A program made the position numbers and the translations under genes. Shown here one piece after another: positions 5,901 to 23,308 of a DNA stretch of 30,439 bases (positions within the stretch are counted from its first letter, which is position 1; each line of letters starts with the position of its first letter). The stretch is from a virus. The notes under the pieces are model-generated. The model did not search any database. It was not told where the DNA came from and was given only the letters and a program-made list of their open reading frames with translations. Location of the stretch: positions 1 to 30,439 of IMG/VR virus record IMGVR_UViG_3300012920_000161; one strand, written 5' to 3'.

Positions 5901-6993
5901 TAGAAGAACTTACAGGTACAAATGGGTCTGCATATGTACCACTACCTGTTTTAGGCCAACTAGCATCTTTAAATTGTCCTATTGAACTCGTGACATAAGA
6001 TGAACTTACATTATATAGATAAGATTCATATCCATCAAAATTGTTTTTAACACCTGAAATTAAATTATCAAATCTTTGTAAATCTTTTTCTGAACCAGTT
6101 GTTCCTACTAAAGATGCACTTTGTTGAGTATAGCTTTCTATTTGTTTAATTTTATATTTAAAGTTTTCTAATCTTTTTTCAGCTGAGCTAAAATTAACAA
6201 AGTTTTCAAAATTAGAATAATCAATATTTAATTCAACTGGTTTTTCACTACCACTAATATATTTATCAATAATATTTTTTTGTAATTTAGAATCTGAAGT
6301 TATTAATTGATTATAATTTTTTAAATTAGTTTTTCTTGGTCTTATAGGTGAATTTAATTGAGAAGATTCTGTTGTTCTTAATACTACAACTTCTTCTTCC
6401 TCTTGGTCATATGGTATTAATTCAACTTCTTCAGTTAGTTGAGGTAATATCTCTTGAACTACATGAACATTATCTTTTTCTACTATATTATCTGATAACG
6501 GTTCGTATAATTTAAAAATAGTTGAATATGGAAAATCTGTAATTGTGTTTTTGTCAATAATTGCATTTGTGATTAATTTTAGATTATCATCACCGAAATG
6601 AATGTAGGTATTTAAAGCTCTTTTATTACCTATATTATTAGAAACACTTATATTATCAAATGTTTGATTAACTTTTATCAGGTCTTCTTCTGCTCCAATA
6701 GTTTCTCTATATTCAGACCAAGATTTATTAATTTTTATTTTATCACCATCCACCTCTAATATTTTAGCAACAAAAGGAGCAGTTATGATTGCAGGACCAA
6801 TATCCTTTGTACTTTCAGGGTCGTAATCATCTATGATAACATTTTCTTCTATATTACCATCGCCTTCTTCGCCTATTCTAACGGTAGCACCAGAATTATT
6901 ACCAGATGAAAAAGTAGTATTAGTACCGCCACCTGCACCTGCTGTAGTAGAATCGTCTTCACCAAAATCGTCAAAACTATTATATTCTGCCAT
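2917..6993 (-). CDS. Giant baseplate/tail protein (gp7 position) with split lectin-like domain
   Basis: A 1358-aa structural protein, the largest in the window. Residues 1-60 are acidic and Gly/Asn-rich. Residues ~400-550 hold a helical block (DELWLYTKSMAEISDR, then LISSMPYILKSKGTIGSLKA and ILNCYGIP) of a type I associate with baseplate wedge or tail-protein-I-like proteins. Residues ~575-665 and ~855-945 look like two halves of a LamG/concanavalin-like jelly roll (ETSWTND near the start, EFRLWTEPLD near the end). Between them, ~670-848 resembles a carbohydrate-binding module (SLKHFNSG, ETYLFSAFV, GSTVYWDDFSL). The C-terminal ~350 residues are unassigned. A strong GGAGG lies upstream of ATG. 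Its place after gp25 and gp6 matches that of T4 gp7, but homology to gp7 is inferred. The lectin-like parts may touch the host surface. Confidence 0.8.
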   Translation of the reverse strand: MAEYNSFDDFGEDDSTTAGAGGGTNTTFSSGNNSGATVRIGEEGDGNIEENVIIDDYDPESTKDIGPAIITAPFVAKILEVDGDKIKINKSWSEYRETIGAEEDLIKVNQTFDNISVSNNIGNKRALNTYIHFGDDNLKLITNAIIDKNTITDFPYSTIFKLYEPLSDNIVEKDNVHVVQEILPQLTEEVELIPYDQEEEEVVVLRTTESSQLNSPIRPRKTNLKNYNQLITSDSKLQKNIIDKYISGSEKPVELNIDYSNFENFVNFSSAEKRLENFKYKIKQIESYTQQSASLVGTTGSEKDLQRFDNLISGVKNNFDGYESYLYNVSSSYVTSSIGQFKDASWPKTGSGTYADPFVPVSSSNSSFTDWYGSVNSKTGQIYSASLYDTNNFNKLSNLLPQHIKDDINNKYFLDFMDMVGQHFDELWLYTKSMAEISDRKNNLSEGFSKELLFNLAASLGWSMDDGKDLLDLSRVGFGQKLSGTSYSLYTSGSLDSPPEGDISKEITKRLISSMPYILKSKGTIGSLKAILNCYGIPSSVLRVREYGGLQKEGQKPDFEISRKFTKALGFRANQYVETSWTNDSVTSRKPETVELRFKTLSGSNQVLVQKDEDWAIKVKNNGSTDNKGTVSFMLSGSDGYKEVSSSLLPVYDGEYYSVMLRKNKINTELFPSSSIETPTNLGLFNPFTGAERGTLEVVSSSNVARTGTKSLKHFNSGKIGDGVSYTHKYRGDDSSLANVSLGETYLFSAFVQASASVVDSVVSINLFELDSNEEVVDWNEEFDYSNKDGGIKSSERIGVNETEWKQVQVKKTIKFPNTSKLGIRLENVKEGSTVYWDDFSLRKVSSNTDSITDAFSYDLFVKKYDAGLDRITLASKTNLIISSSVSQSYNNAWNGNGNLFIGGNNTTPLNANKLSGSMMEFRLWTEPLDEDKFNIHVATPKSYIGNSPTSSFTTLVRRFAFNDDKILASSASIRDSRPNQNTTQSGSANHFSSINSFESVIDKTKTIIPNSGPNRNMSTKIRIENNYLSGSGATLNIDKRYDRSANDFSPLDSPKLGIYFSPTDIVNEDIVSAFASLDFNELMGDPRDNFSENYRELKNTSDKYFQKYTGKNNFFDYMRLIKYYDQSVFKQLRKVIPARAKAHIGTVIEGNIFERPKSPVQKNNPTFTQPFYEREINISNFEVEHEDSRSVITPSSEYPNYTGEVNNRDVFLTPSLYNLGVNNNYEDRNLYISSSVKYGGPNRVFSEVTCSIIDNNRTSFSNREYRFFYTSSADFDRSEIKNPNNYKNFYTSRSLVETDLDPEYQFILPLNRSFYEGVKNTKDTTIDGDSSIVVRVTSPTVAVPFDSADSNLQVIDD

Positions 6994-7009
6994 TACTTAG
7001 CTACCTCCA

Positions 7010-8407
7010 TTATGTCCATGTTTTACCACCCTTTTTAACTATTCTTATAACATTCGGTATATATAAAGTACTAGATACAACTTTACCACCGTCAGGTAAT
7101 TTTGATTCTATCCTTAATGTTACAGCTATATCAGTATTGTTATCTTTTAAATCTATTGTTATTTCACTACCATTAGTACTCTCTGTTTGATATCTGACAC
7201 CACCAGATTCAACTATTGAGGCTTTATCTGATTGAATTCCTCCTGTATAACTCTGACCTTGCGTAAAATCTTTACCACTAAGTGTCCAAGTATATCTTAC
7301 TAATGCAGTCTCAGATGGTTTAGTTGAAACTGACCTTAACGTGACTTTACCTCTCTCAAATTGTGGTGTTCTGTATTGTTCTGCTATACCTTGACGAATT
7401 ATTCTATTACGAGTTTTACCTCTATTTGTTTCGTAAAATTCTTTCCTTTCAGCTACTGTATTTTTATATGGATGACCACGTAATGCTAATTGTGATTGTA
7501 TCCTCCGGGATACACTGGATGTGGGTCTTCTTCTTCTCAGATTTTTATTAACCTCTGATTCTGTGCTAAAATCTAAGAACATTTTATTTAAAGTATTGTT
7601 TACCGTACTAGAACTACCATCTCTTATATTTACTAAGGATAAGTCACTAAAAATCCATCTAGCTTGTATATCACCAACAGTTTCTTCCTCAGGTATAAAT
7701 GATGGGTCTGGAGGAGGTGGTGGGAATATTTTTTGTTCTACGAAAACGTCATTTAGATATAGCAGGCCTCCTGCATAAGACTTAGGAACATCTTGAGATG
7801 CTTTTAAAATAAGGCTATCGGATAAAACTTCTTCAGAATTGACGTTTTTTTCATCGTGAAAATTTAATGAAAAATCTACTTTTTCTTTCCTTCTATCTTT
7901 TCCTGCAAAAAATAAATCATCTTGATATTGTTTATCATCTATGTTTTGACCTATCAATCTAATTTCAGTTCTGGTTGGTGATATCTCATGTAAAATATAT
8001 TTGTTTTCTTTTATAAAAAGTTTTTTATATGTAGAATCTGAGTGCGTCTCTCCATCCATAATAGTACCATCATCCATAATATGATAAGCACCATTCCATA
8101 TTTTATTATCACTATCAACTAATATAGTCTCATAAGAACCAGCTACTTTTCTTAAAAAATTATATCTAACTCTATACCTACCTCTATCGTAACCCATCTT
8201 TCTAAGTATAGTTCCTGTTTTTAATTTTACGCTCTCACCATCAATACTATAATCAGATTCTTCTACTATACTAGTTTCTAACAGATTATCATTTGTATCA
8301 TATAAAAATGCCTCAATGTAATCATTTTTATTGGAACCAAATCCTAAATCAACGGTTTGATTTTTAAATAATATTTCATTGTCTTTTTGATTTAACGTAC
8401 TTCTCAT
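7010..8407 (-). CDS. Baseplate/tail protein of unknown function
   Basis: A 465-aa protein not recognised by name. The first ~190 residues are mixed alpha/beta with repeated short strands (YIEAFLYDTNDNLLE, RYRVRYNFLRKV), resembling phage baseplate or fibre-network domains. A proline run (FPPPPPDPSF) at ~230-240 looks like a hinge. After an Arg-rich linker (NLRRRRPTSS), the last ~120 residues are Thr/Ser-rich beta sequence ending in a conserved-looking VRIVKKGGKTWT, plausibly an Ig-like domain. The start overlaps the upstream stop as ATGA, indicating translational coupling. The upstream neighbours are the gp6 region genes and the downstream one is the giant gp7-position protein, so it is probably a wedge component or wedge-fibre connector. 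Confidence 0.75.
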   Translation of the reverse strand: MRSTLNQKDNEILFKNQTVDLGFGSNKNDYIEAFLYDTNDNLLETSIVEESDYSIDGESVKLKTGTILRKMGYDRGRYRVRYNFLRKVAGSYETILVDSDNKIWNGAYHIMDDGTIMDGETHSDSTYKKLFIKENKYILHEISPTRTEIRLIGQNIDDKQYQDDLFFAGKDRRKEKVDFSLNFHDEKNVNSEEVLSDSLILKASQDVPKSYAGGLLYLNDVFVEQKIFPPPPPDPSFIPEEETVGDIQARWIFSDLSLVNIRDGSSSTVNNTLNKMFLDFSTESEVNKNLRRRRPTSSVSRRIQSQLALRGHPYKNTVAERKEFYETNRGKTRNRIIRQGIAEQYRTPQFERGKVTLRSVSTKPSETALVRYTWTLSGKDFTQGQSYTGGIQSDKASIVESGGVRYQTESTNGSEITIDLKDNNTDIAVTLRIESKLPDGGKVVSSTLYIPNVIRIVKKGGKTWT

Positions 8408-8946
8408 TCTACGGCCTCACCAGTTGGTATTAAGTTTAACTGCGACTCTTCAACTGTTTTTACGTTACTAACATCGTATTCTGCATAAAATATACCTACA
8501 TCATCAAATGGTTTTTTTTGATTATTTGAAATTAAAAAAATTGTTTTATCGTCAAAGTCATCACTACTCACTACATCACCATTCGATACACCTTCAGGAA
8601 GAACATTAGCAAACTCCGATTGTGCTAATTCAACTATGTTTCTATTTATTGTTTTTTCAAGTAAACTATTTGATACGTAAACTGGATATTTTACATTACT
8701 AATTGTCTTTGAAGCTTCTAAATCATTTTCATCTAATCCTATGCTCTCATATAATCCATCTTGTTCTATATTAGCATCTTCTATACCATTTGTAGATATT
8801 ATATCTTCAAAAGAATATAAAATACCATTACGTCTAAAATTTTCTGATTTTAATTCTTTTACTCTATCTAAATATTTGTCTCTTAATTCATTAACAAACT
8901 TTTGATAGAAATCAACATATTTTAATTGTTCTTTATTAAACGGCAT
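8404..8946 (-). CDS. Small baseplate-region protein
   Basis: A 180-aa acidic protein without a recognisable family. Residues 1-45 are strongly helical and charged (FVNELRDKYLDRVKELKSE), then a mixed region with a YPVYVSNSLLEK segment, and an acidic end. It begins in a TAATG overlap with the upstream stop and ends in an ATGA overlap with the downstream gene, so all three products are likely made in linked amounts. This fits a small structural subunit or assembly adaptor of the baseplate. No catalytic motif is seen. Confidence 0.7.
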   Translation of the reverse strand: MPFNKEQLKYVDFYQKFVNELRDKYLDRVKELKSENFRRNGILYSFEDIISTNGIEDANIEQDGLYESIGLDENDLEASKTISNVKYPVYVSNSLLEKTINRNIVELAQSEFANVLPEGVSNGDVVSSDDFDDKTIFLISNNQKKPFDDVGIFYAEYDVSNVKTVEESQLNLIPTGEAVE

Positions 8947-10019
8947 TATTTAGTTACCTTAAATGTAAATCCTTCATTAAAATATTGGTCACTTTCATCA
9001 ATAGTATTACTACCACTTACTACTCTAAATTTTAAAGTATAATATCTTTCTGGTTGATAACCATCTAACCATAAATTAAAATAATTACCCTGAGAATCAC
9101 AACTTAACTTTGAACCACTTCCAAATGGTACAATAACATCATGAGTTTCTGCATCACAAATAGAATAAAAACTTGAACCACTTGGTAAATATTTTATAGT
9201 TAAGTTAGATGGTGTTGTTGAATATGTTTTAGATGGATATCTGTTTCTACCAACAACTCTAAATTTTACTTTTGACTTTTCATGATATTCTGGTCTTAAA
9301 CCTTTCATGTATAACACCGTATCTTCTAAATCTGTTGAACTTAATGGAGATAAAGAACCCGTGGACCAACTTGAATCGTCCCATTGAACTTCAAGTGTTG
9401 GTGGATATTTAGTGTGTGTATCTGTTGAAAAAAATGAAAAATTACCTAATCGAGAACTATCAGTTTCAGCACTTCCACTTCTTTTTATCATAAAACCTTC
9501 ATTAGTTTTATTACCAGTTAACCAATCATTTACTATATCAGTAACATCCATTCTCATGTCTTTTGAATTTCTATTAAATGAATGTGACGCTTCACTAGCA
9601 GTATAAAACGTACCACCAGAAGCACTTAATTCTGAATTCCATAATGTACCATCTGTTTCTCCAAATCTAAATGTGTAACTACAACCTTCTTTATTAGATG
9701 GGTTATCATATGACCTACCATCACCCATTGTCCAAGATTGACTGATTGGATAAGCATACAAACTTTGAGATGTTGCTAAAGCAGTAGGTTTAGCATCAAA
9801 TAAATTTAAATAATATTTAGGATTAGTAATTAAATTATTACTAACTGATTCTGAAATATAAGATAAATCAAATTTTATTAAAATTCTTGAATCATTAACT
9901 ACCAATCCACTATCACTAACATCTTTTCTTACTTCTAATACTTCATCTAAACCAGCATTCATACTTGAACTGACTTCATATAAAGTATTATCTTTTTCTG
10001 CAAATTCAAAATAATGCAT
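8946..10019 (-). CDS. DNRLRE-like beta-sandwich tail protein
   Basis: A 357-aa protein. Residues ~40-215 show hallmarks of the DNRLRE/CBM-type beta-sandwich family: RILIKFDLS near the start, the LYAYPISQSWTMGDGRSYD segment, and near the end MDVTDIVNDWLTG followed by GFMIKRSG. In other proteins this domain is extracellular and linked to carbohydrate binding or stalk building. The last ~120 residues (GRNRYPSKTY, ERYYTLKFRVV) form another beta-rich module. It starts by a TAATG overlap with gp6. In T4 this locus would carry wedge genes, so a baseplate-associated or short-fibre role is likely, with the domain serving adhesion or structure. The family call is from pattern recognition and is moderately secure. 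Confidence 0.7.
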   Translation of the reverse strand: MHYFEFAEKDNTLYEVSSSMNAGLDEVLEVRKDVSDSGLVVNDSRILIKFDLSYISESVSNNLITNPKYYLNLFDAKPTALATSQSLYAYPISQSWTMGDGRSYDNPSNKEGCSYTFRFGETDGTLWNSELSASGGTFYTASEASHSFNRNSKDMRMDVTDIVNDWLTGNKTNEGFMIKRSGSAETDSSRLGNFSFFSTDTHTKYPPTLEVQWDDSSWSTGSLSPLSSTDLEDTVLYMKGLRPEYHEKSKVKFRVVGRNRYPSKTYSTTPSNLTIKYLPSGSSFYSICDAETHDVIVPFGSGSKLSCDSQGNYFNLWLDGYQPERYYTLKFRVVSGSNTIDESDQYFNEGFTFKVTK

Positions 10020-11929
10020 TATTCTGTTACTCCTAAGTTATCACCAACCACCTTACCTTCAATATCTATGTTTGGAAATTTAACTTCAAATATACTTGGG
10101 TCTAAGGCAGTATATAATATACCATCTATCATACTTTTTTCTATATCAAAAAAATTACCTGAGTAACCATTTGCTGTCCTGTATTTATTTTCAATTTTTA
10201 TTACAGTATTTGAATTTTCTGGAGGTACTATAGATGCTACACCATCTATTAATGACAATTCATATGCAATATCCGAAAGAATGATAGGTTGTCCTATTTG
10301 CCATCTATCTATATCAAAAAAGTCTTTTACTGCAGCTACACATCTTAGTAAGACTTCATTTTTATTAAATCCAACTTTTGTTAAAATAGCAAACTTAACA
10401 CCAATATTTATTACGTAAGCATCTTTAATATTAACTGCATCAGTAACTAATCTAAATTGAGACAAGTATGTTTTTAAATTTTCTTTTACTGTATTATTTA
10501 ATTGAGTTAACTTTTTATTGGAATCAAATCCCAAAGTATACATATCTAATGCCAAAGGGTTAATAACTTTTTCATTTTCTAAATTTAATTGTTCATCTTG
10601 TATTAAATGAACTTTTGCAATATTACCATATCTTTGTGGTAGAGAATAAGCTCTAACAATATAATCTTCTTTAGTTACAGCTCTTTGTTGAGATTGATAG
10701 TAAGCTAAAGCACTTTCACGTACTTCTCTAATACTCTGACCTGCACTACCACCAGTAGCAGGAAAAGGATTAGTAAATCTAACAGAGTTTTTTGATTCGT
10801 CTAATAGACTAGTAGTTAAATTATCTGTAGACTGTCCGTAACTAATAGAACTTATACTATTTATCTGATTTGAATTAACATTATCATCTATACCACCACC
10901 ATAAGAATATGTAATTGATAGAGTTGTGTTAGATGGTGCTTGTCCGAAAGCTTTTGTCTTTAAAAAATTACTAGGGTCGAAAGCAACACCAAGTTTACTT
11001 GGACTACCAGGTAAATTAGAACCGACCATATCTGGATTTGGTATAAGTTCTTCATCTGGATTATCTGAAGTTCCTGCTCCAAATCTTAAAATAGTTTCAT
11101 CATCTTGATTAATGTATGTTGTAAATCTACGAGCAGTTTTTTTAAGTTTTAATATGTAAGGTGATGTTTCACGACCGACTACTGAAGTTGGGTCATTATC
11201 AACATTATTTTCTATATCTTCAAAAATAGTGTCTCTAGCTAAAGAATCAACTTCATACCATTCATTACCATCACTATCAATACAAGATATTATTTCTATT
11301 ACATCTGAATTAGTTAATTTTATTTCAGAATATTTTTTAGCGTTACCGAATGAGAAACTTTCAGTCTTTGTAGCTCCACTCTCAGCTTTTACTTTTTTCT
11401 TTAGTAAAAATTTAGTAGGCACACCAGCATTGGTTTCAAATATCTCTACACTTCTAGGGTCATAAGAACTAGAGGTATTAAAGTTAACGTCTTCTAATGT
11501 TCTAAATGTAGTACCTGTTGTATCTGCACTAATTTCAGTCCCAGCTTTTACATTTAAAGCATATCTATAATCTGGTTTTTCATTTAGTGCAGGTACAGTT
11601 TGGAATGCATCAAGTGTTGTTGTAGCTGGTGAAGTTACTTTTGGTTTGTAACCAAACGACTGAGCTATATTATAAACATTTCTCTTTTCTTCAGCATAAG
11701 CTAATAAAGACTCTCTAAACTGTGAATCGATATAATAAGAAAGTACGTCGCCAACATATGCAGCCATCTCAATAAACATCATTCCTGGTGATGCTTCATT
11801 GAAATCATTATAGGTATTGGGAAAGTATACTTTAGCAAACTCAATTAAACTATCTCTAAAATCACTAAAATCTTTATTAAGATAATTAACTTGTTTTACG
11901 ACATTCTTTTTTACACTTGTTCTTGCCAT
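10019..11929 (-). CDS. gp6: Baseplate wedge protein gp6 (baseplate J family)
   Basis: A 636-aa protein matching the T4 gp6/baseplate-J architecture. The N-terminus has KQVNYLNKDFSDFRDSLIEF and NDFNEASPGMMFIEMAAYVGD, the signature by which gp6-like proteins of marine T4-like phages are usually recognised. A mid-section (~390-440) has REVRESALAYYQSQQRAVTKEDY followed by AYSLPQRYGNIAKVHL, typical of the J-domain region. In T4, gp6 dimers form the continuous inner ring of the baseplate wedges. The gene follows gp25 by 10 bases, as expected since gp25 binds gp6, and AAGGA precedes ATG. Its length is close to that of T4 gp6 (660 aa). The call is confident from motif and synteny. Confidence 0.9.
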   Translation of the reverse strand: MARTSVKKNVVKQVNYLNKDFSDFRDSLIEFAKVYFPNTYNDFNEASPGMMFIEMAAYVGDVLSYYIDSQFRESLLAYAEEKRNVYNIAQSFGYKPKVTSPATTTLDAFQTVPALNEKPDYRYALNVKAGTEISADTTGTTFRTLEDVNFNTSSSYDPRSVEIFETNAGVPTKFLLKKKVKAESGATKTESFSFGNAKKYSEIKLTNSDVIEIISCIDSDGNEWYEVDSLARDTIFEDIENNVDNDPTSVVGRETSPYILKLKKTARRFTTYINQDDETILRFGAGTSDNPDEELIPNPDMVGSNLPGSPSKLGVAFDPSNFLKTKAFGQAPSNTTLSITYSYGGGIDDNVNSNQINSISSISYGQSTDNLTTSLLDESKNSVRFTNPFPATGGSAGQSIREVRESALAYYQSQQRAVTKEDYIVRAYSLPQRYGNIAKVHLIQDEQLNLENEKVINPLALDMYTLGFDSNKKLTQLNNTVKENLKTYLSQFRLVTDAVNIKDAYVINIGVKFAILTKVGFNKNEVLLRCVAAVKDFFDIDRWQIGQPIILSDIAYELSLIDGVASIVPPENSNTVIKIENKYRTANGYSGNFFDIEKSMIDGILYTALDPSIFEVKFPNIDIEGKVVGDNLGVTE

Positions 11930-14427: not shown

Positions 14428-15156
14428 TTAGAAGAGCGAACCCGTATTACTAGTATCTAAATGACCATTTTTAGAAAATTCTTCTGCCATTGCAAAATAA
14501 TATTTTTTCATTTGGTTTATAACACGTGTAATATGTTGAGTATTACTACCAGTCATTTCACGAATCATAATATAAAGAGCTTTTTTATTGAAATTTTCTA
14601 TATTCATTCTTCTTCTAAATATTTCTAATACAGAATCAGCAACTAAAATATCTTTTTGTCTACGAAAAATATTAGTAATATTATTATCCCAATACTCTAA
14701 CATTTGGTCTACAAACTCTACATTATATTCAGTAACATCCTCAGTATTTAATTCTGACTGGACGTTCCTCGTGAAATCTAACACATCTACGTCATCTTGA
14801 GATTTTTGTTTTTTATAGTTGTTGTTATTATTTAAAATTAAATAGTTTTTACCAACTACAGAAAAATAAGAAAATGCTCTACCTTTATCTGGTTCATACT
14901 TTGGTAATTGCATAAATAAAAAAGAAACTACTTCATCTTTTACATCTTTAAAAGAATAATCAAAATAATAAAATTTAAAAGTGTGAATTAAGTTTTCAGC
15001 TAACTTATCAAATGCAGCTGCAATCTCTTCAGTATAAATTTTATTTTTTTCTACCACCTCAGTAGCTGCATTATATCTAATAATTGCTTCCTGAACTGGT
15101 GTTCCAAAATACATTTTACTTTTTTTACGTCTTTTCTTGACCATTTTAGCTGGCAT
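14428..15156 (-). CDS. gp55: Late-transcription sigma factor (gp55-like)
   Basis: A 242-aa protein with a Lys/Arg-rich start (KKRRKKSK) and a sigma-70 region 2-like core at ~50-125: LAENLIHTFKFYYFDYSFKD, then DEVVSFLFMQLPKYEPDKGR and AFSYFSVVGKNYLI. That last pattern is typical of gp55-type phage sigmas and of region 2 of alternative sigmas. In T4, gp55 replaces host sigma and, with the sliding clamp, directs RNA polymerase to late promoters. The ~185-225 helical segment (REMTGSNTQHITRVINQMKK) may be a region 4-like or coactivator contact. It starts inside the end of the preceding small gene (11-base overlap) with GGAG 9 bases upstream, and directly precedes the late structural block it presumably activates. 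Confidence 0.85.
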   Translation of the reverse strand: MPAKMVKKRRKKSKMYFGTPVQEAIIRYNAATEVVEKNKIYTEEIAAAFDKLAENLIHTFKFYYFDYSFKDVKDEVVSFLFMQLPKYEPDKGRAFSYFSVVGKNYLILNNNNNYKKQKSQDDVDVLDFTRNVQSELNTEDVTEYNVEFVDQMLEYWDNNITNIFRRQKDILVADSVLEIFRRRMNIENFNKKALYIMIREMTGSNTQHITRVINQMKKYYFAMAEEFSKNGHLDTSNTGSLF

Positions 15157-15406
15157 CTAATTCTTCTCCTTTGAATTGTTGTAATTCATTTGTAGTTGTT
15201 TTAATTTGTTCAAATATAGCACCAACTTCGTCATCTGATTCAAAGTGACCAGTTGCATCTATTTTTTTTAATTCACTTTGTACATACTCTATAGCTTCTG
15301 TAAAGTTCTCTATCCAAGTTTCTAATGTTTCAGTTTTTTTCATTAGATTCCAGATAACATAACTTTCAACTAAAAGTAATGTACCTAATACTATTTCTAC
15401 TATCAT
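15146..15406 (-). CDS. Small membrane-anchored coiled-coil protein
   Basis: An 86-aa protein: residues 1-20 form one hydrophobic segment (MIVEIVLGTLLLVESYVIW), then a charged amphipathic helix and an acidic motif (DATGHFESDDEVGAIFEQIK). I recall comparable proteins beside gp55-type sigma genes in marine T4-like phages, but no function is known. It overlaps the HD gene by one base and the sigma gene by 11 bases, so it is translationally coupled to both. A role at the inner membrane, with the acidic helix in the cytoplasm, is inferred from topology. Confidence 0.75.
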   Translation of the reverse strand: MIVEIVLGTLLLVESYVIWNLMKKTETLETWIENFTEAIEYVQSELKKIDATGHFESDDEVGAIFEQIKTTTNELQQFKGEELDAS

Positions 15407-16224
15407 TATTTATCTCCAAAAAGTTCGTCAAATAAATCTTTTGATTTTGCAGATAATACATCAGGTGTCTTTTTTTCTACAAAAGCTTTCTTGATATTTT
15501 TAACAGATTCTTCTTCTTTTTTAACTCTTTCTTCTTTTAATTCAGGATGTAAAATCTCATTATAATTTATAGCAGAATCTTTACTAAACATATATCTTTC
15601 CTTTTCTAATCTTGTAGCCATCATATCTGCTTGATGTAGTATTAAAGGAAGATTTGTTTTAAGATTTTTACCTTCACCGAATCCCATTAAATATCCTTGG
15701 TTAGCATCTTCATACATACCATCAGTAAGTCTTAAAGCTAAATACTCAACTTGAGACATAGTAATACCAAAATGATTTAATAGCCATATTGCTCTATCAG
15801 TAACAGTCATGTAATGTAACTTGTCATTGTACTCGTAAGTTTTACCTTGATTGATTCTATGCCATTCAGATTCATTCGGTGTATAATAATCTTCAGTTAA
15901 ATCACCCAACTTACCTAAGTCATGATGTAAAGCACAAAATATAACAGATTCTAAAGTATACTCTTCTGTATGAGCTCCCATTTCTTTCCACATCTCATAT
16001 ATCTTAGTAGCACATTCTGTTATGTTTAATATATGGTCAACGTAACCACCTGGAATAGCGTTGTGATAATATATGACACCACTAGCAGGAGCAAACATTG
16101 CTCTGTCTTTAAAATGTTCATACATTTCAAGTAACTTTTCCTTTCTTTCTCCTTCAAAAGTATCTTCTACTATACCAATTAATTTGTCCCAATTACCCTG
16201 TATTTGTTCTGGTGTAAATTCCAT
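15406..16224 (-). CDS. HD-domain metal-dependent phosphohydrolase
   Basis: A 272-aa protein with an HD-superfamily core: the early His in GGYVDHILN (~H64), the HHDLGKLGDL motif (~H101, D102) and a late Asp in LHQADMMATR (~199). These are the usual metal ligands of HD hydrolases acting on nucleotides. Ala/Glu-rich helices at the N-terminus and a Lys-rich C-terminal tail flank it. AAGGAG lies upstream of ATG. Sitting directly after the dpdA-like gene in a deazaguanine operon, it might hydrolyse a nucleotide precursor or clear competing dG nucleotides, but nothing in the sequence fixes the substrate. General phage nucleotide metabolism or alarmone hydrolysis are alternatives. Confidence 0.8.
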   Translation of the reverse strand: MEFTPEQIQGNWDKLIGIVEDTFEGERKEKLLEMYEHFKDRAMFAPASGVIYYHNAIPGGYVDHILNITECATKIYEMWKEMGAHTEEYTLESVIFCALHHDLGKLGDLTEDYYTPNESEWHRINQGKTYEYNDKLHYMTVTDRAIWLLNHFGITMSQVEYLALRLTDGMYEDANQGYLMGFGEGKNLKTNLPLILHQADMMATRLEKERYMFSKDSAINYNEILHPELKEERVKKEEESVKNIKKAFVEKKTPDVLSAKSKDLFDELFGDK

Positions 16225-16234
16225 TTATATCTCC

Positions 16235-17437
16235 TTAAAAGAAATTGTGATTTTTATTACTATGGTCTTTTTTTACATTACTCATCTTACGATAAAGATG
16301 TTTATATCTTTCAAATACCACATCAGGGTCTTCACTCTTTACCATCTCATCAATAGACCTTAATACTTTATAAACTTCACTATCAACAGCTTGTTTTAGT
16401 ATGTAATCGTGACCATAAATTAATTCAGTTACATTTCTGATAGCATCTTTGAATACATAAAAGTTATGTAACCTCATACCCATAGTACATTGTGTATTCC
16501 AATCAGCTACATCCTTCCAAGAAACAAGTCCTTTTAGTACATCATCAAAAGCAGTCATACGAGGCCAATCTTGATTAGGAGTTTCTCTGAACCAATCAAT
16601 AATATCAGGTTGATGTTTTTCACTTGGAAAATTTATAGATTCAAAAGTTGCCTTCTTGATGCTGAATCTTGTATAATAGGTTCCAAATACAACAGCTCTA
16701 TCTGGAGAGGAACTATCAGTTGTTACAACTATTTTAGAACCGATATCTTCTAATGATTTTTGTAACTGAATCAACATCAAGAAGTCTCTAATTTTTGAAG
16801 TACCAAGAATATGAAAATACTCATTCGTAGAATTTAAATGTTCTTTACCTTGTAGTAAGGCATAAACACCTGACATAAAACGATAAAGACTACCACCAGC
16901 ACCTCCGATACCCCAACCACAAAAGTCAAAATCTTTTACTTGATTGTACCAATGTTTGTAAGTGTGTTCATCATCACCTTGTACTACGTTTAAAAACTTA
17001 GTCGAACCATCTTGTTTTTTCTGAAAGTATTTAAAGTTATCTAAACTTACATCTAAACATTCGTGAAACTTTCCTTCATTTTTTAAACGAGGAGGTAAAT
17101 CTAAATTCATAGCAATATCTGTATTCTCAGACAACCAATTAAAAATTTTATCTCTGTATTTTAAATCCCATTTCAAAGCCCCTGAAGCAAATTGAAAACC
17201 TCCAGAGTCACCCATTACAAGATTTCTATCAGTAAGTCCCATTTTATTTTTATAATCTTTTACTGACATATGAGCTCCAGCTGTAATCAATATCTGATTA
17301 TGTTGATACTCTTTAGGATATTCTTCGCTGTAAAATCTTATCGTCATATCATTTCTGAAACGATGGTCTTTTACAAAGTTAGAACCCATCTCACCAGCTG
17401 AGAATGAAGGAAAATAAATAAAATTAGTTTTAATCAT
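16235..17437 (-). CDS. dpdA: DpdA-like 7-deazaguanine DNA transglycosylase (TGT fold)
   Basis: A 400-aa member of the tRNA-guanine transglycosylase superfamily. Landmarks align with Zymomonas TGT: DSGGFQ at 77-82 (general base Asp102), NLDLPP at 111-116 (Asp156 region), VVQG at 151-154 (Gln203 region), GIGGAGG at 176-182 (Gly229-230 loop), and DSSSPDR at 241-247 matching the DCVLPTR box with nucleophile Asp280. The CxCxxC zinc site of tRNA-acting TGTs is absent; only a Cys and a His (TQCTMGMRLHNF) remain, as reported for DNA-acting DpdA proteins. It starts in an 8-base overlap with the glycosyltransferase gene. With folE, queD and queE upstream, exchange of guanine in phage DNA for a 7-deazaguanine is the natural role. 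Action on tRNA is not excluded. Confidence 0.82.
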   Translation of the reverse strand: MIKTNFIYFPSFSAGEMGSNFVKDHRFRNDMTIRFYSEEYPKEYQHNQILITAGAHMSVKDYKNKMGLTDRNLVMGDSGGFQFASGALKWDLKYRDKIFNWLSENTDIAMNLDLPPRLKNEGKFHECLDVSLDNFKYFQKKQDGSTKFLNVVQGDDEHTYKHWYNQVKDFDFCGWGIGGAGGSLYRFMSGVYALLQGKEHLNSTNEYFHILGTSKIRDFLMLIQLQKSLEDIGSKIVVTTDSSSPDRAVVFGTYYTRFSIKKATFESINFPSEKHQPDIIDWFRETPNQDWPRMTAFDDVLKGLVSWKDVADWNTQCTMGMRLHNFYVFKDAIRNVTELIYGHDYILKQAVDSEVYKVLRSIDEMVKSEDPDVVFERYKHLYRKMSNVKKDHSNKNHNFF

Positions 17438-18404
17438 TAAACCACCTTTCTATTGAGTCTTGAAAATCATTAGGATTTTTAATTATATTATTATTACTAT
17501 ATACGTTGTCACTTACCATTTTACAAGCTTCATCAAACGTATTATACAAATATTTTTTAGGATAAAACTCAGGATATACTAATCTGTTAGGAAGAACAGG
17601 AACACAACCCAGATAAACAGCTTCGGCTACACTAAATCCAAAATTTTCTTGAAGAGCAAAACTAACAACTACTTTAGACTTAGCTAATAATTCATAATAT
17701 TCTTGTTTAGAAAAATTATGTTCCAGTGTGTTTATAAATTGAATATTATTATCTCCAAGAGTATCTCTCATTTGTGTAAATAACCAAGGTTGTTTTTCAT
17801 CTACATTTCTAGCAGAGAATATAACAATATTTTCTTTTTTAGTTTTTTTAATTTTATCTAATTCAAGAGTATCTAATGGAAATCCCGTAGGTACTAACTT
17901 ATCAGGATTAATTAATCTTTTCTTAATTATATCCTGTTTAATAAAATTACTACCACAATAAATTTTATCAGCAATATCAAACAAAGTATCCTCAAAATTC
18001 TTAGCCCATCTTTCCATATCCCTTACAAAATCAGTATCAGTAAAACTACCAGCATGTATTAGTCCTCTTAGTTTCACATCTTTTTTTGTAAAGTAATTCA
18101 TGTAAGCTATACTTTCTGGTAATCCAGGATGCCATAAATCAGAACTCCAGATAATGTCGCCTGAAACTATTACATCATCACGATATAATCTGGCTACTTC
18201 TTCTAACTGAGCAGCTTTAAATCGTATTGTAAATTCAGCATCAAGAAAACTACCTGCTTTCATACTTGTAGGAGCAGGAATATTAGGGTATATTTTTATG
18301 CATTGTAAATCTGATTTTTCAAGATAATTTGTTATATCTCTGTCCATATGAGTTGTATATCTTGAATCAATGTGTTCAAGTGGTAAGTAAATTATTTTAC
18401 CCAT
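17430..18404 (-). CDS. GT-B glycosyltransferase (GT4-like)
   Basis: A protein of about 324 aa from the chosen start. The C-terminal half has the family hallmark: NIVIFSARNVDEKQPWLF (start of the donor-binding Rossmann domain), then KVVVSFALQENFGFSVAEA and VYLGCVPVLPN, giving the E-x7-E pattern of GT4-type retaining transferases. The N-terminal acceptor domain has SDLWHPGLPES and RGLIHAGSFTD. I prefer ATG at 18404, giving MGKIIYLPLEH: it has GGAG 9 bases upstream and overlaps the previous stop by 8 bases, matching the coupling style of this operon. The frame is open to an earlier ATG at 18434. It may glycosylate the deazaguanine base placed by DpdA, or a surface or host target; the operon favours the first, by inference. 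Confidence 0.8.
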   Translation of the reverse strand: MGKIIYLPLEHIDSRYTTHMDRDITNYLEKSDLQCIKIYPNIPAPTSMKAGSFLDAEFTIRFKAAQLEEVARLYRDDVIVSGDIIWSSDLWHPGLPESIAYMNYFTKKDVKLRGLIHAGSFTDTDFVRDMERWAKNFEDTLFDIADKIYCGSNFIKQDIIKKRLINPDKLVPTGFPLDTLELDKIKKTKKENIVIFSARNVDEKQPWLFTQMRDTLGDNNIQFINTLEHNFSKQEYYELLAKSKVVVSFALQENFGFSVAEAVYLGCVPVLPNRLVYPEFYPKKYLYNTFDEACKMVSDNVYSNNNIIKNPNDFQDSIERWFND

Positions 18405-18756
18405 ATATTTCAGCTCCATTCTCATTGTCTTCAAATACAGAACAATAAACTAAATCAAATTCTTCTAATAATTCTTTAGCTAGCATCTCACAAGACCTTG
18501 CTTTAAAATTACACAAATCATATTGTTTATCGTAATATTTTTCTTCTAAATACTTTTTAATTTTTCTTTTAAATACTATGAACTCAACATCTCGGTCATC
18601 ATGAAAAACTTCTTTCTTGACTTCAATATGAAACATATGTCTATGAGGTGATTCAAGATAAACCATTGTGGGTTCGTATTTACTAGCCTCAGACCACCAA
18701 TGTAGTCCTTCAACTTGTAATCTACATATTATATTAGTACGCGGGAGATGTGTCAT
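18397..18756 (-). CDS. QueD/PTPS-like T-fold protein (second T-fold gene)
   Basis: A 119-aa protein resembling a compact 6-pyruvoyl-tetrahydropterin/6-carboxy-tetrahydropterin synthase fold. Visible features are ESPHRHMFHIEV (~35-46, a His-x-His like the zinc pair of QueD), DDRDVEFIVFKRKI (~53-66, where QueD has the DF-x-x-LK strand-helix), a SCEMLAKELLEEF helix (~88-100) and a final strand, YCSVFEDNENGAE. It lacks a Cys-x3-His-Gly-His motif, so normal QueD catalysis is uncertain. It starts inside the end of the phosphoribosyltransferase gene (23-base overlap). I associate this short T-fold family with phages but know no function. A modified pterin or deazaguanine step, or partnership with the bona fide QueD upstream, is inferred. 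Confidence 0.65.
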   Translation of the reverse strand: MTHLPRTNIICRLQVEGLHWWSEASKYEPTMVYLESPHRHMFHIEVKKEVFHDDRDVEFIVFKRKIKKYLEEKYYDKQYDLCNFKARSCEMLAKELLEEFDLVYCSVFEDNENGAEIYG

Positions 18757-19150
18757 TTAAATAATCCTGTCTTTCTTCTGAATCTTTAGTTTCCCAAGGA
18801 TAAACAATCCATTTGTCTTCCTTGTCAATAACTGAAAATTCTGGTTTAACAATACTCTGTTCATGTTCGTGAATAGTGACTATATAACCTTTTTTAAAAT
18901 TATTCTCATAAAACTCTAAAGTTTTACCTGTATCAGCTATATCATCAACAATCACAAAGTCATCAAATTCACAATCAAAAGGGTTTTCTATAAATGGTAA
19001 ATCTAATTTGTGGCTTAACAAAACAGCTAATATTGTACCTCCTCTAGGTATACCAAATACACCTTTAAAATCTTTACCTGTATCTTTTAAGTGAAATGCT
19101 ATTTCAGTAACAGCTTCTTCTATTAGTTCCCAATTTACAAATTCTTTCAT
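18734..19150 (-). CDS. Phosphoribosyltransferase (type I, Gpt-like)
   Basis: A 138-aa type I PRTase. The PRPP-binding loop is [14 protein letters not shown] (residues ~65-78), and an upstream GIPRGG loop (~34-39) binds pyrophosphate. A C-terminal WIVYPWE segment recalls xanthine/guanine PRTases (Gpt), though the protein is slightly shorter. Such enzymes join a free base to PRPP to form a nucleotide. It begins in an ATGA overlap with folE and sits between deazaguanine genes, so it may salvage purine for GTP supply or act on a 7-deazaguanine base. The base specificity cannot be read from the sequence. Confidence 0.8.
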
Positions 19151-19779
19151 TTTAAATCCCTTATAAAGTTATAAAATTCTTCTCGTGAATGACTCTTCCA
19201 ATTCATAAACTCACCACTTAGTTTTGAAGTTTTCATAGTAGCATCATGTTTGATACCTCTTACACAAGCACACATATGATTAGCTTCTATTGAAACAGCA
19301 ACACCAATGTTTTCTTCACATACATCATGAACATGGTCATGTACCTGCATTGTTAAGTTCTCTTGTACTTGAGGTCGTCTAGCATAAAAATCAACAATAC
19401 GATTTAGTTTACTTAGTCCAATAACTTTACCTTCAGGAGTAGGAAGATAAGCAACATGAGCATGTCCTATAAAAGGTAGATGATGATGTGAACAAAATGA
19501 ATGTAGCTTGATGTTGCCTTGGAATACTATACCATCATACCCATCAACATTATCAAAAGCTGTAATCTTAGGTGATTCGTTATACACACCTGAAGCTAAG
19601 TCGTTTACGAAAGCTTTAGCTACTCTGATAGGAGTCTCTGAAGAATTAGGGTCTTGACTCCAATCAAAACCTAAAGCTGTCATATAACGACCATAATGTT
19701 CAGCTGCTTCTTCAATCATTTTTAATTTTTCTTGTTCGGTTAACGGATGATTTCCGTTAGCATGTTTCAATTTATTCAT
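19147..19779 (-). CDS. folE: GTP cyclohydrolase I
   Basis: A 210-aa protein from the chosen start with complete FolE signatures: [20 protein letters not shown] (zinc Cys96 and His99), the helix [14 protein letters not shown], and [12 protein letters not shown] (third zinc Cys170). The enzyme converts GTP to 7,8-dihydroneopterin triphosphate, the first step toward folate and 7-deazaguanines. I chose ATG at 19779 (MNKLKH): GGAG precedes it by 5 bases and it overlaps the previous stop by 8 bases; the frame extends to 19803. With queD and queE upstream and dpdA downstream, it should feed deazaguanine synthesis, though general folate boosting is also possible. Confidence 0.95.
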
Positions 19780-20005
19780 CTTTACTCCATTGTTTATATC
19801 CAAAAATATTCATACCAATTACAAATAAACTTATTGCTATCTGAGGAGGAGCATCAATCAAATAAGCATAGATTAAGAAAGCAACATTTCCCAATCCCCA
19901 GATAATAAAGCAAGTTTTTATTTTTTTAGCGTTGAAATAGTAACCTGCTACAATAGCAGCAGTTCCTATCCAACCTATCCAATCATACCCCACGTTCATC
20001 TCCAT
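19772..20005 (-). CDS. Small PnuC-like membrane protein
   Basis: A 77-aa hydrophobic protein with three membrane segments ([36 protein letters not shown], and [18 protein letters not shown]). The spacing and the final GYKQW resemble a half-length piece of PnuC (nicotinamide riboside transporter) or a SWEET-like unit, so it may work as an oligomer. It overlaps queE at its start (23 bases) and folE at its end. A second in-frame ATG lies at 19999. It could import a precursor such as a ribonucleoside or NAD precursor. Substrate and even transport activity are inferred from topology only. Confidence 0.7.
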
Positions 20006-20732
20006 AAGCTATAATATGTAATCTGTCTGTAAAATTATAACCTTCCTTAACACATATATCTAACAACCATTGTCTTCTTTCATTCAGTTGTTTTATATTT
20101 ACACCCTCAGGCATTAAATACACCATGTTGTTAGGAACGTCTAATATTTTTTGTAACTCTTTTACTTCTTGTAAATCTTCTTCATTAGAAATTACAGGTT
20201 TCATTTGATAATCAGGATGATGCTCTATGAGTTGTTTCATAGCATCATAATTACAACGCCACTTTTCATGTTTTTTTCTATCACCCTCAGTAACTATTTT
20301 ACCAGTATAAGGCATTTTAGTTCCTGGTCTAGGAGTACTATTAGATAGTTTAGGTGAAAGTGAAATCAAATGACCAGTAGTAGGAACAAACTCACTACCC
20401 TCAGTTTCTATAGTAATGTAATGGTCATATATAAAACCAGCTATGTGACATAATTGTTTTAACATTTTAGCATGTAACGTGGGACCTCCACCTGTAATCA
20501 TAGTATGTCTTATATGAAGATTTTTTTGATAAAAGCGATGTATGTCTTCGTAAGTATATTTACCTTTTTCAGGACCCCAAGAACTATAAGGTGTATCACA
20601 AAAAGAATTAGCGAACTGACATCTTAATCTGCAACCACTTACTCTAATTAGAATGTGAGGTACACCTAATAATTTACCTTCACCTTGTACACAAGTGTAC
20701 AATTCATTTATAGGAAGAACTTTATCTGACAT
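19983..20732 (-). CDS. queE: 7-carboxy-7-deazaguanine synthase (radical SAM)
   Basis: A 249-aa QueE-like radical SAM protein. ELYTCVQGEGKLLGVPHILI opens like QueE. The [4Fe-4S] motif follows at about residues 34-45 (CRLRCQFANSFC) and leads into DTPYSSW, the QueE hallmark. Spacing is C-x3-C-x6-C, not the common C-x3-C-x2-C. HTMITGGGPTLH corresponds to the SAM-binding GGE region (here GGG), and ITIETEGSEF and LISLSPKLSNST match later family blocks. The enzyme rearranges 6-carboxy-tetrahydropterin to CDG. The gene overlaps queD by 11 bases, placing consecutive pathway steps next to each other. Confidence 0.9.
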   Translation of the reverse strand: MSDKVLPINELYTCVQGEGKLLGVPHILIRVSGCRLRCQFANSFCDTPYSSWGPEKGKYTYEDIHRFYQKNLHIRHTMITGGGPTLHAKMLKQLCHIAGFIYDHYITIETEGSEFVPTTGHLISLSPKLSNSTPRPGTKMPYTGKIVTEGDRKKHEKWRCNYDAMKQLIEHHPDYQMKPVISNEEDLQEVKELQKILDVPNNMVYLMPEGVNIKQLNERRQWLLDICVKEGYNFTDRLHIIAYGDERGV

Positions 20733-21165
20733 ATTCAGCGTGATTGTTTTCGTGTTCCCAAACTTCTACTCGTGTAATCTCAACACGATTATTTGTTTTC
20801 TGTTTTACCATTGGATTTAATTTGTCATATAGATAACGACAGGACTCTTCAATACCTGGATAATAACCATCATCAAGTACATTAAGATATATACCACCTT
20901 TACTTTCTAGTTCTTGTAAATCAGATAGTAAAGGGTCATCAGCTGCAATCAAGACTCTATGGTCCCACTCTGATTCAATCCACTTCTTAACATCTTTTAA
21001 ATCACCAAAGTCCATAACCCAACCTCTTTCGTCAAGTTCTGAAGCTTCAAATGTTAAACGGATATATCTTCCATAACCATGTACGTAGCTACAATGTCCT
21101 TCGTCCTTCCATTGACGGTGACCTGTAGTAATAGGACCAAATCTCTTAGTAGATTTGAACTTCAT
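20722..21165 (-). CDS. queD: 6-carboxy-tetrahydropterin synthase
   Basis: A 147-aa QueD/PTPS-family protein that makes 6-carboxy-5,6,7,8-tetrahydropterin from the FolE product. Visible: His16 in TTGHRQW (first zinc ligand), GHCSYVHGYG at 23-32 with catalytic Cys25 and zinc His29, GWVMDFGDLK at 48-57, WDHRVL at 67-72, and VEVWEHENNHAEY at the end carrying the conserved Glu. Where the family has Cys-x3-His-Gly-His, the last His is Tyr31, so one usual zinc ligand is changed. It is the first gene after a strong promoter (TATATT about 27 bases upstream) with AGAGG before ATG, and overlaps queE by 11 bases. Confidence 0.9.
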   Translation of the reverse strand: MKFKSTKRFGPITTGHRQWKDEGHCSYVHGYGRYIRLTFEASELDERGWVMDFGDLKDVKKWIESEWDHRVLIAADDPLLSDLQELESKGGIYLNVLDDGYYPGIEESCRYLYDKLNPMVKQKTNNRVEITRVEVWEHENNHAEYVR

Positions 21166-21191
21166 AATAACCTCTTATTTATATCGTATAT

Positions 21192-21220
21192 AATATACGA
21201 AATTATTTGTTAATTGTCAA
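21192..21220 (-). promoter_or_regulatory. Sigma-70-type promoter of the deazaguanine/sigma operon
   Basis: On the minus strand TTGACA (21215-21220) and TATATT (21192-21197) are 17 bases apart, preceded by an A-rich stretch (AAAGAAAAATAATAC) like an UP element. The preceding base context ACTTGACA and the TTTCG before the -10 are shared with three other promoters in the window. Expected start is about 20 bases before the queD ATG. A TATAAATAAG string (around 21173-21182) between the -10 and the gene also resembles a T4 late -10 box, so dual control is possible. Confidence 0.85.
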
Positions 21221-21773: not shown

Positions 21774-21825
21774 CCTTTTGTATAAATATTAGTTAAGTCA
21801 CCAAAACAATCATTTTTTATTCTAG

Positions 21826-22224
21826 TGGAGCTGGGGGGAGTCGAACCCCCGTCCTAATATCTCCAATAAAAAAGTCATTCACAACTTAGTTAGGTTCCAA
21901 ATTCAGTAGTCACCTACAACCCACCATGGTCAGTTTACAGATTGACAACTGAGAACTTTTACTCTGTTCCAAGAGTTGGTGTCTAACTTATTTTATGACC
22001 GAGTGTTAGACAACTCAGTAACTTAGGCCGCGTAGGCGTAAGATGGTTGGGAATCAGAAACGAAATTATCAAATCCCATTTCAGAATTAGCTAAATGCCA
22101 ATCTATTTCCAACCCTTGTAGCGATTGTTCGCCATTTTAGGTTATGAGTCTTTTTTAGACGAGTCTTACTCAAACTCCGTTGCACTCTTTTATCAAACGA
22201 TACCAGTCGAAACCAGTCAGCCCC
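21826..22224 (-). ncRNA. ssrA: Transfer-messenger RNA (tmRNA), one-piece
   Basis: The ends form a tRNA-Ala-like domain: 5' GGGGCTGA pairs with 3' CAGCTCC plus discriminator A, including the G3-U70 alanine pair, and a T-arm GGGGGTTCGACTCCCCC. The conserved TTCGAC of the D-region follows the 5' stem. PK1 can be drawn: GAGT (22174-22177) with ACTC (22161-22164) and TGAGT (22168-22172) with ACTCA (22145-22149). Exactly 11 bases later comes the probable resume codon GGC (22131-22133), the same spacing as in E. coli tmRNA. CCA is not encoded (CTA follows the discriminator). Mature length is about 399 nt. With SmpB, presumably from the host, it would rescue stalled ribosomes. No promoter of its own is evident. 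Confidence 0.95.
22023..22133 (-). other. tmRNA tag-peptide reading frame, 36 codons
   Basis: From the GGC placed 11 bases after PK1, an uninterrupted frame of 36 codons runs to TAA. It begins Gly-Glu-Gln-Ser-Leu and ends PSYAYAA, matching the usual hydrophobic ...YALAA-type protease signal; a Gly-Glu start recalls Bacteroidota tags. Most tags I know are 8-20 residues, so this is very long. An inverted repeat (GGTTGG/CCAACC, about 60 bases apart) lies inside the frame. A competing frame shifted by one base (GCG start) gives a 9-residue tag beginning ANN and ending at TAG without Ala-Ala; a shorter in-frame start at GCT (22 residues) is also conceivable. Confidence 0.7.
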
Positions 22225-22505: not shown

Positions 22506-23093
22506 TCATTGACAGCATTTTTTATACTTTTTTCCTGAACCGCAGTGACATGGGTCATTTCTACCTATCTTATTTTCATTTTTTATAGTATTAACAGCTC
22601 TTCTATCCATTATAGTTTTACCATTTAAATGGTCTATCTCATGCTGAACACAAACAGTTTCAAGCTTTCTAAGTTCGTATTCTTTTGTTTTTTGAGTTTG
22701 CTGTTCCCATGTACCCGTACCTTCAGAAGAATTTTTTGCTGCACTGAAGTATAGCTTACTATCTTCTTGTTCTGTAGCAACTACGATATCACCATATCTT
22801 TTTGTATGTACACCTTTACCTTCAAAAGATAAACAACCTTCATAATAAGGTATTTCATTTGAACATTCAACTATTTCAGGATTAATTAATACTATTGGTT
22901 CTCTAACGTTTACTACAGCAACCTGAGCATCAATACCAACTTGATTAGCTGCTAATCCAATACCATCTTGACGTTTATTAAGTATTTGAAACAACTCTGT
23001 AGCTATTTTCATACCTTCGTCTACAGAGACTTTTTTTAGTAGTCTATTAATTAAAGGATTGTTTTCTTTTAAACAATTAATTACTTGTCTCAT
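22506..23093 (-). CDS. def: Peptide deformylase with C-terminal SEC-C zinc motif
   Basis: A protein of about 195 aa with all three deformylase motifs: GIGLAANQVG (motif 1), EGCLS (motif 2, metal Cys) and QHEIDHL (motif 3, metal His residues and catalytic Glu). It removes the formyl group from nascent N-termini. The last ~20 residues, GRNDPCHCGSGKKYKKCC, are an SEC-C zinc motif as found at the end of SecA. I chose ATG at 23093 because it forms an ATGA overlap with the upstream stop; an in-frame ATG five codons earlier is possible. The insert before motif 3 (SSEGTGTWEQQTQKTKEYEL) is longer than I expect. Phage deformylases are well known; the SEC-C fusion is less usual. Confidence 0.92.
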   Translation of the reverse strand: MRQVINCLKENNPLINRLLKKVSVDEGMKIATELFQILNKRQDGIGLAANQVGIDAQVAVVNVREPIVLINPEIVECSNEIPYYEGCLSFEGKGVHTKRYGDIVVATEQEDSKLYFSAAKNSSEGTGTWEQQTQKTKEYELRKLETVCVQHEIDHLNGKTIMDRRAVNTIKNENKIGRNDPCHCGSGKKYKKCCQ

Positions 23094-23308
23094 CGTGTAC
23101 GAGTCCATGGGTTAATATTATTATTAATACGTCTACGAACTATTCTATGTCTCCAGTAACCTAATCCCCAAGACACTAACAATAAAACAGCTATTAACAT
23201 TTTTAAAATATCAGCATCTCTAACTGACATATAACCGAATATCGTCGCAGTTAATAATTGTATATAGAACTGAGCTAAATTTAATTTTTTTAATTTATTT
23301 TTTTGCAT
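23090..23308 (-). CDS. Small two-pass membrane protein
   Basis: A 72-aa protein with a basic start (MQKNKLKKLN), two hydrophobic segments (FYIQLLTATIFGYMSV and ILKMLIAVLLLVSWGLGYW) and a strongly basic C-terminus (RHRIVRRRINNN). The basic ends suggest both termini are cytoplasmic. It overlaps the previous gene by 14 bases and the deformylase by 4. No family is recognised. A holin would fit size and topology, but the gene is in an early-type region away from lysis genes, so no function is assigned. Confidence 0.65.
   Translation of the reverse strand: MQKNKLKKLNLAQFYIQLLTATIFGYMSVRDADILKMLIAVLLLVSWGLGYWRHRIVRRRINNNINPWTRTR

Follow-up and report, generated by a model that had tools for sequence, protein, structure and literature searches.

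The window analysed here, the whole 30.4-kb stretch of IMG/VR record IMGVR_UViG_3300012920_000161, is a fragment of a phage, a virus of bacteria, in which nearly all long open reading frames lie on the minus strand. It holds an eleven-gene operon, running on that strand from 21165 to 14428, in the order queD, queE, a gene for a PnuC-like protein, folE, a phosphoribosyltransferase gene (PRT), a gene for a second protein of QueD fold (T2), a glycosyltransferase gene (GT), dpdA, an HD-domain hydrolase gene, a membrane-protein gene and a sigma-factor gene. The reading frames confirm this order, as an earlier note on this DNA had given it, and 9 of the 10 junctions overlap, by 1–32 nt; the remaining one, between dpdA and the HD gene, is a 10-nt gap. 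The precursor genes of DpdA-type 7-deazaguanine DNA modification, folE, queD and queE, are all present. The gene queC, which converts 7-carboxy-7-deazaguanine (CDG) to 7-cyano-7-deazaguanine (preQ0), was found neither in the window operon nor in the T2-type operons of its lineage, as covered by the fragments that carry them; T2 and GT stand where it would be. This absence, the key to the system, had been overlooked in the first reading.

Relatives were collected by a dpdA search of viral contigs. Eleven close full-length relatives, with dpdA 89–93% identical, keep the same order as far as their contigs extend, and one partial relative (L016) was also found. In a further group, at 59% dpdA identity, the larger contigs have queD, queE, folE, queC and dpdA and are without T2 and GT, and it was through this group that queC was recognised as the piece missing from the window operon. 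Two layouts recur: queD–queE–pnuC–queC–folE–PRT–dpdA–HD–membrane–sigma in 13 viral loci, and queD–queE–pnuC–folE–PRT–T2–GT–dpdA–HD–membrane–sigma in 5 loci and the window, where 13 and 5 count loci and not independent phages, some loci overlapping the same contigs. The whole order of the window operon, whose gene set the earlier note proposed to seek in related phages, recurs in independent viral contigs. The queC-type operons keep the PnuC-like, PRT, HD, membrane and sigma genes and have T2 and GT exchanged for queC; because the PnuC-like, PRT and HD genes persist there, they do not define a hypermodification. The view of the operon as one hypermodification pathway is therefore supported for T2 and GT, which are tied to it and absent from otherwise identical dpdA operons (the 13 queC-type loci), and not for the PnuC-like, PRT, HD, membrane and sigma genes, which stay.

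Among whole phage records, 10 of 10 that bear T2 lack queC at the family cut-off and 4 of 4 that bear queC lack T2; two more are without queC, T2 and queE. These records had been chosen through matches to T2, GT, PRT, HD or sigma, and the exclusion was therefore tested again on loci anchored on QueE alone, where 49 viral loci have queC, 16 have T2, 15 have neither and none has both (Fisher 1e-8, a value that overstates the evidence because the loci are not phylogenetically independent). GT against queC gives the same table, with GT absent from the 49 queC-type loci. The contigs behind these statistics are metagenomic fragments, and PA5oct and its relatives count as one lineage. The sole locus with both T2 and queC among 237 viral loci (L068) was set aside, its ‘queC’ scoring 25 bits, a cross-match; likewise the QueC match of phage X1 (6.6e-4) falls below the cut-off, and the local model does not class that locus as queC. 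Five T4-like contigs (L234, L237, L249, L253 and L273) carry queD–queE–folE–PRT and GT–dpdA; the part of the genome that they cover contains neither T2 nor queC, and T2 may be located outside it or have been replaced. Flavobacterium phage immuto (L028) has a deazaguanine cluster at 4057–11064 with dpdA, a PurN-like formyltransferase gene and queF, and queC about 11 kb away.

Within the T2–GT operons of the lineage dpdA is 89–93% identical, compared with 43–58% to queC-type operons that have the same block; folE of the window is 73–83% identical to theirs. In the QueE tree the window groups with its queC-type neighbours L210–L217 (support 98/98), and in the DpdA tree with the T2–GT contigs L226 and L118 (support 97/94); the sequences in a broad alignment of QueE differed too much for it to serve in scans. 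The two trees conflict with strong support and, like the identities, indicate that dpdA travels with the T2–GT module.

T2 (18397–18756, minus strand, as are all operon features; family phrog_17812) is predicted with high confidence (AlphaFold pLDDT 96), and its model is closest among solved structures to QueD/PTPS (TM 0.71 for E. coli QueD), with QueF-like proteins ranked lower; its alignment gave no significant match to PDB sequences. Compared by eye between alignments, T2 keeps three histidines matching the QueD metal site, plus a glutamate, and has an invariant leucine at the position of the QueD catalytic cysteine, with the Asp–His pair gone; on these catalytic residues it was rejected as an ordinary second QueD. 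The protein is 93–97% identical among relatives, and 14 of its residues do not vary across 48 divergent sequences; this strong constraint, together with the mutual exclusion with phage queC, argues for a replacement and not a relic. Since it appears to bind a compound of the QueD/QueE type and replaces QueC, T2 most simply acts on CDG; it would be a CDG-processing enzyme that retains the metal site, with decarboxylation of CDG to 7-deazaguanine as the leading guess for its reaction. The family is present in the Cellulophaga phiST group, and T2 occurs without GT in 36 viral loci and in phages phi13:1, RHph_I1_18, MA9V-3 and Bakedbeans. Fusions of T2 with other domains occur in MA9V-3, a phage of Chryseobacterium (L023, 5464–6345), where the N-terminus looks endonuclease-like by eye, and in Bakedbeans, a phage of Vibrio (L032, 6221–7372).

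GT (17430–18404, its start corrected to 18404 from a TTG at 18434) overlaps both T2 and dpdA by 8 nt. It matches Glycos_transf_1 (1.2e-4), its AlphaFold model (pLDDT 92) has MshA and BshA, retaining GT4 enzymes, as top folds, and R199, K204 and the EX7E motif (E253-X7-E261) are invariant in 48 sequences, as expected of a retaining GT-B enzyme of GT4 type. The gene keeps close company with the pathway: T2 lies within 10 kb in 71 of 80 GT-anchored viral loci, and those of at least 15 kb hold T2 (34/36), queE (32/36) and folE (31/36). T2–GT pairs share one strand in all 116 cases and are mostly 1–2 genes apart. The pair stands beside deazaguanine genes in phages of Pseudomonas, Sinorhizobium, Acidovorax, Synechococcus and Xanthomonas, among them the Paride/PA5oct-type Pseudomonas phages, Phosso, ACP17, BUCT-ZZ01 and X1. 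Genes of sugar-nucleotide type are, in the metagenomic loci, almost confined to those with GT, which is present in 16 of 16 loci with a GalE epimerase near it (over the NCBIfam cut-off), in 28 of 30 with an RfaE-like nucleotidyltransferase, in 10 of 10 with an MDR oxidoreductase and in 9 of 9 with a Gfo/Idh oxidoreductase. Xanthomonas phage PhiXhv-12 (L025, 1283–9710) has GNAT, Gat-QueC, PIG-L deacetylase, distant GT relative and Gfo/Idh oxidoreductase genes in one run, a candidate pathway for an aminosugar-decorated deazaguanine; the GT relative beside the PIG-L deacetylase resembles pairs of the BshA/BshB type.

Family support for the other enzymes is clear for QueD, QueE, FolE and PRT and, as for GT, weaker but convergent for DpdA and the PnuC-like protein. 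QueD (20722–21165), the 6-carboxytetrahydropterin (CPH4) synthase, matches PTPS at 1.4e-26 and keeps the catalytic cysteine and the Asp–His pair; its second zinc histidine is a tyrosine, as in most aligned phage QueDs. QueE (19983–20732), the radical S-adenosylmethionine CDG synthase, matches phrog_2076 at 1.8e-42, and FolE (19147–19803) matches GTP cyclohydrolase I at 3e-47. The small PnuC-like membrane protein (19772–20005), present in queC-type operons too, has a match of 4e-5, below the cut-off. DpdA (16235–17437), by homology a DNA guanine transglycosylase, matches TGT at 0.0022 in the window and 1.6e-6 in the relative G004, neither value reaching the Pfam cut-off; D77 (in a DSGG motif) and D241, the catalytic Asp residues, are invariant across distant relatives, and H209 is invariant too. 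PRT (18734–19150), a type I phosphoribosyltransferase (6e-9), resembles XGPRT (1a95, 7.6e-9), with an intact phosphoribosyl pyrophosphate loop and a score below the NCBIfam equivalog cut-off; in immuto, BUCT-ZZ01 and a Brevundimonas phage, too, a PRT gene adjoins folE or sits near it. The enzyme plausibly salvages the guanine that DpdA releases, closing a loop to GTP, a role equally applicable to queC-type operons.

The last three genes belong to a different unit. The HD-domain hydrolase (15406–16224), which is not pathway-specific, opens a neighbouring core block; a small membrane/coiled-coil protein with one apparent N-terminal hydrophobic segment, by eye (15146–15406), and a gp55-like late sigma candidate (14428–15156) complete it, and baseplate genes come after it. 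The likeness to gp55 comes from profile comparison (hhalign probability 93%, E 2.5e-7, 93 columns), direct hidden Markov model scans being not significant. Of the sigma loci, 32 extend at least 3.5 kb upstream, and in these HD is present in 31, the membrane gene in 32 and dpdA in 3, and because 29 of 32 have no adjoining dpdA, HD–membrane–sigma is treated as a separate core block. The cassette sits upstream of this block, in a slot that has other genes in other phages. In dpdA-less relatives (L283, L292, L316, L336, L339 and L334) the slot holds varied cargo, including Asp/Asn hydroxylase-like, pyridoxal phosphate-dependent, ResIII-like helicase, DruA-like and ~450-aa GT4-like proteins, a cargo that may serve other kinds of modification or defence; GT matches beside HD in dpdA-less loci score 25–35 bits, compared with 409 for the true family, and were dismissed as generic GT4 cross-matches.

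One promoter ahead of the operon, as the earlier note had it, is well supported. TTGACA-17-TATATT (21192–21220, minus strand) is of sigma-70 type and one of the top two among 52 matches, and its hexamers and spacing are constant, while the flanks drift, in all 5 relatives that reach that far. The argument rests on this conservation, because promoter-like matches as a class show no excess over shuffles. The adjoining TATAAATA at 21176–21183 is not conserved in relatives and was for that reason rejected as a late promoter upstream of queD. In the window, 7 copies of TATAAATA were found against 9 expected by chance, and hence no sign of late promoters of this form before structural genes, where a diverged motif is possible. 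Just upstream of the operon, also on the minus strand, lies a phage-encoded transfer-messenger RNA (21825–22224; tag ATRVGNRLAFS*); at 22506–23108, on the same strand, is the gene of a peptide deformylase whose C-terminus bears a SEC-C motif.

Taken together, the gene content and the structural models suggest, with a probability of roughly 0.55, that this operon follows a QueC-bypassing branch and equips phage DNA with a hypermodified 7-deazaguanine, which is most likely glycosylated. FolE, QueD and QueE would convert GTP to CDG along the established pathway; T2 would take CDG in place of QueC, 7-deazaguanine being the favoured product; DpdA, by homology, would exchange the T2-derived base for guanine in replicated DNA; and the GT4-type enzyme would then add a sugar to the DpdA product, giving the probable order CDG, T2, DpdA, glycosyltransferase. 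PRT might return the released guanine through GMP to GTP for FolE, and the HD, membrane and sigma proteins would be products of a block on the shared transcript and not pathway enzymes. The decorated, probably glycosylated base that the earlier note suggested gains from the strong tie of GT and T2 to the pathway and from their absence from otherwise identical queC-type operons. That GT glycosylates the modified base is most likely, given the genes with which it is associated and its intact active site, and is the weakest step of the model. Several points speak against it: if T2 yields 7-deazaguanine, with C7-H, neither an O nor an N atom presents itself as acceptor at C7 and the linkage is unexplained, GT4 enzymes act on many other acceptors, GT occurs without T2 in 14 viral loci and in PhiXhv-12, and the DpdA of one queC-type locus on a long branch (L230) is nested in the T2–GT DpdA clade. 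More tentatively, and somewhat short of an even chance, the product may be a new natural base with the sugar directly on 7-deazaguanine (a C7 C-glycoside or a glycosyl ester of the 7-carboxylate), from a QueC-independent T2–GT4 branch that is common among environmental and jumbo phages; its sugars would differ from lineage to lineage and come from epimerases and nucleotidyltransferases that the phages encode.

The missing acceptor at C7 would be of no consequence if the T2 branch placed plain 7-deazaguanine or CDG in DNA and GT acted on the cell envelope, a virion protein or another base, and the 36 viral loci and several phages with T2 and without GT indicate that T2 suffices for some modification. 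We nevertheless consider this rather unlikely, since GT is absent from the 49 queC-type loci, loci with GT nearly always hold the pathway, and GT overlaps both T2 and dpdA and lies near T2 in unrelated phages. It is improbable that QueC of the host supplies preQ0, with T2 a degenerate QueD paralogue and dPreQ0 in the DNA as in classical DpdA phages: the whole Q pathway is indeed encoded by many of the bacteria that such phages infect (PMC6884629), but the constraint on T2 (93–97% identity; 14 invariant residues in 48 sequences) and its exclusion with phage queC are not what a dispensable copy would leave. The coupling of DNA modification to late transcription through sigma in one regulated operon, as the earlier note proposed, fares worst and is very improbable. 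The sigma gene has the same orientation as dpdA, HD and the membrane gene and follows them closely, and in the lineage of the window it is probably co-transcribed with the pathway; all 29 cassette-bearing loci with sigma also have HD and dpdA in the same order. Against this, dpdA is missing from 29 of the 32 sigma loci that extend far enough upstream, Mel-JY01 and LR756508 have membrane and sigma genes although their entire records lack queE, queC and T2, in immuto ~40 kb separate the HD–membrane–sigma block from the deazaguanine cluster, and the operon promoter is of sigma-70 and not late type.

If the QueC-bypassing, glycosylating branch is real, the bulk of a sugar-decorated 7-deazaguanine would shield phage DNA from restriction and CRISPR, and type IV restriction would gain a new target; to our knowledge, the 7-deazaguanine bases of phages are so far small. 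Functions would then be assigned to two ‘hypothetical’ families, phrog_17812 and GT, in hundreds of viral contigs. The swap of queC for T2 and GT in an otherwise identical operon amounts to a natural experiment, and cultured phages with the T2–GT pair (Paride, ACP17, X1, BUCT-ZZ01 and Phosso) open the model to testing.

Among known systems, T2 fits DpdL, the CDG decarboxylase that Cui et al. reportedly described in 2023 from phages carrying deoxy-7-deazaguanosine and its carboxy derivative (dDG/dCDG); T2 has a QueD-like fold and occurs in phages without queC, which agrees with what is reported of DpdL, and the two may be the same. A GT partner is not known from the DpdL work, and a literature search, whose reach excluded the main 2023 dDG/dCDG paper, found no link between a glycosyltransferase and dpdA. 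The queuosine glycosyltransferases QTMAN and QTGAL also add a sugar to a 7-deazaguanine derivative, but theirs is queuosine in tRNA, with hydroxyls on its side chain. Phages 9g, CAjan and nt-1 carry preQ0 or archaeosine modifications in their DNA with DpdA (PMC6884629); they share FolE, QueD, QueE and a TGT-related transglycosylase with the window, whereas the window has T2 and GT instead of QueC, and its DpdA is very distant from standard TGT models. The alpha- and beta-glucosyltransferases of T4 act on 5-hydroxymethylcytosine, and this post-replicative glycosylation protects phage DNA (PMC13216743); the same idea of protective glycosylation after replication is predicted here from genes, but on a different base and by an enzyme that resembles MshA and BshA.

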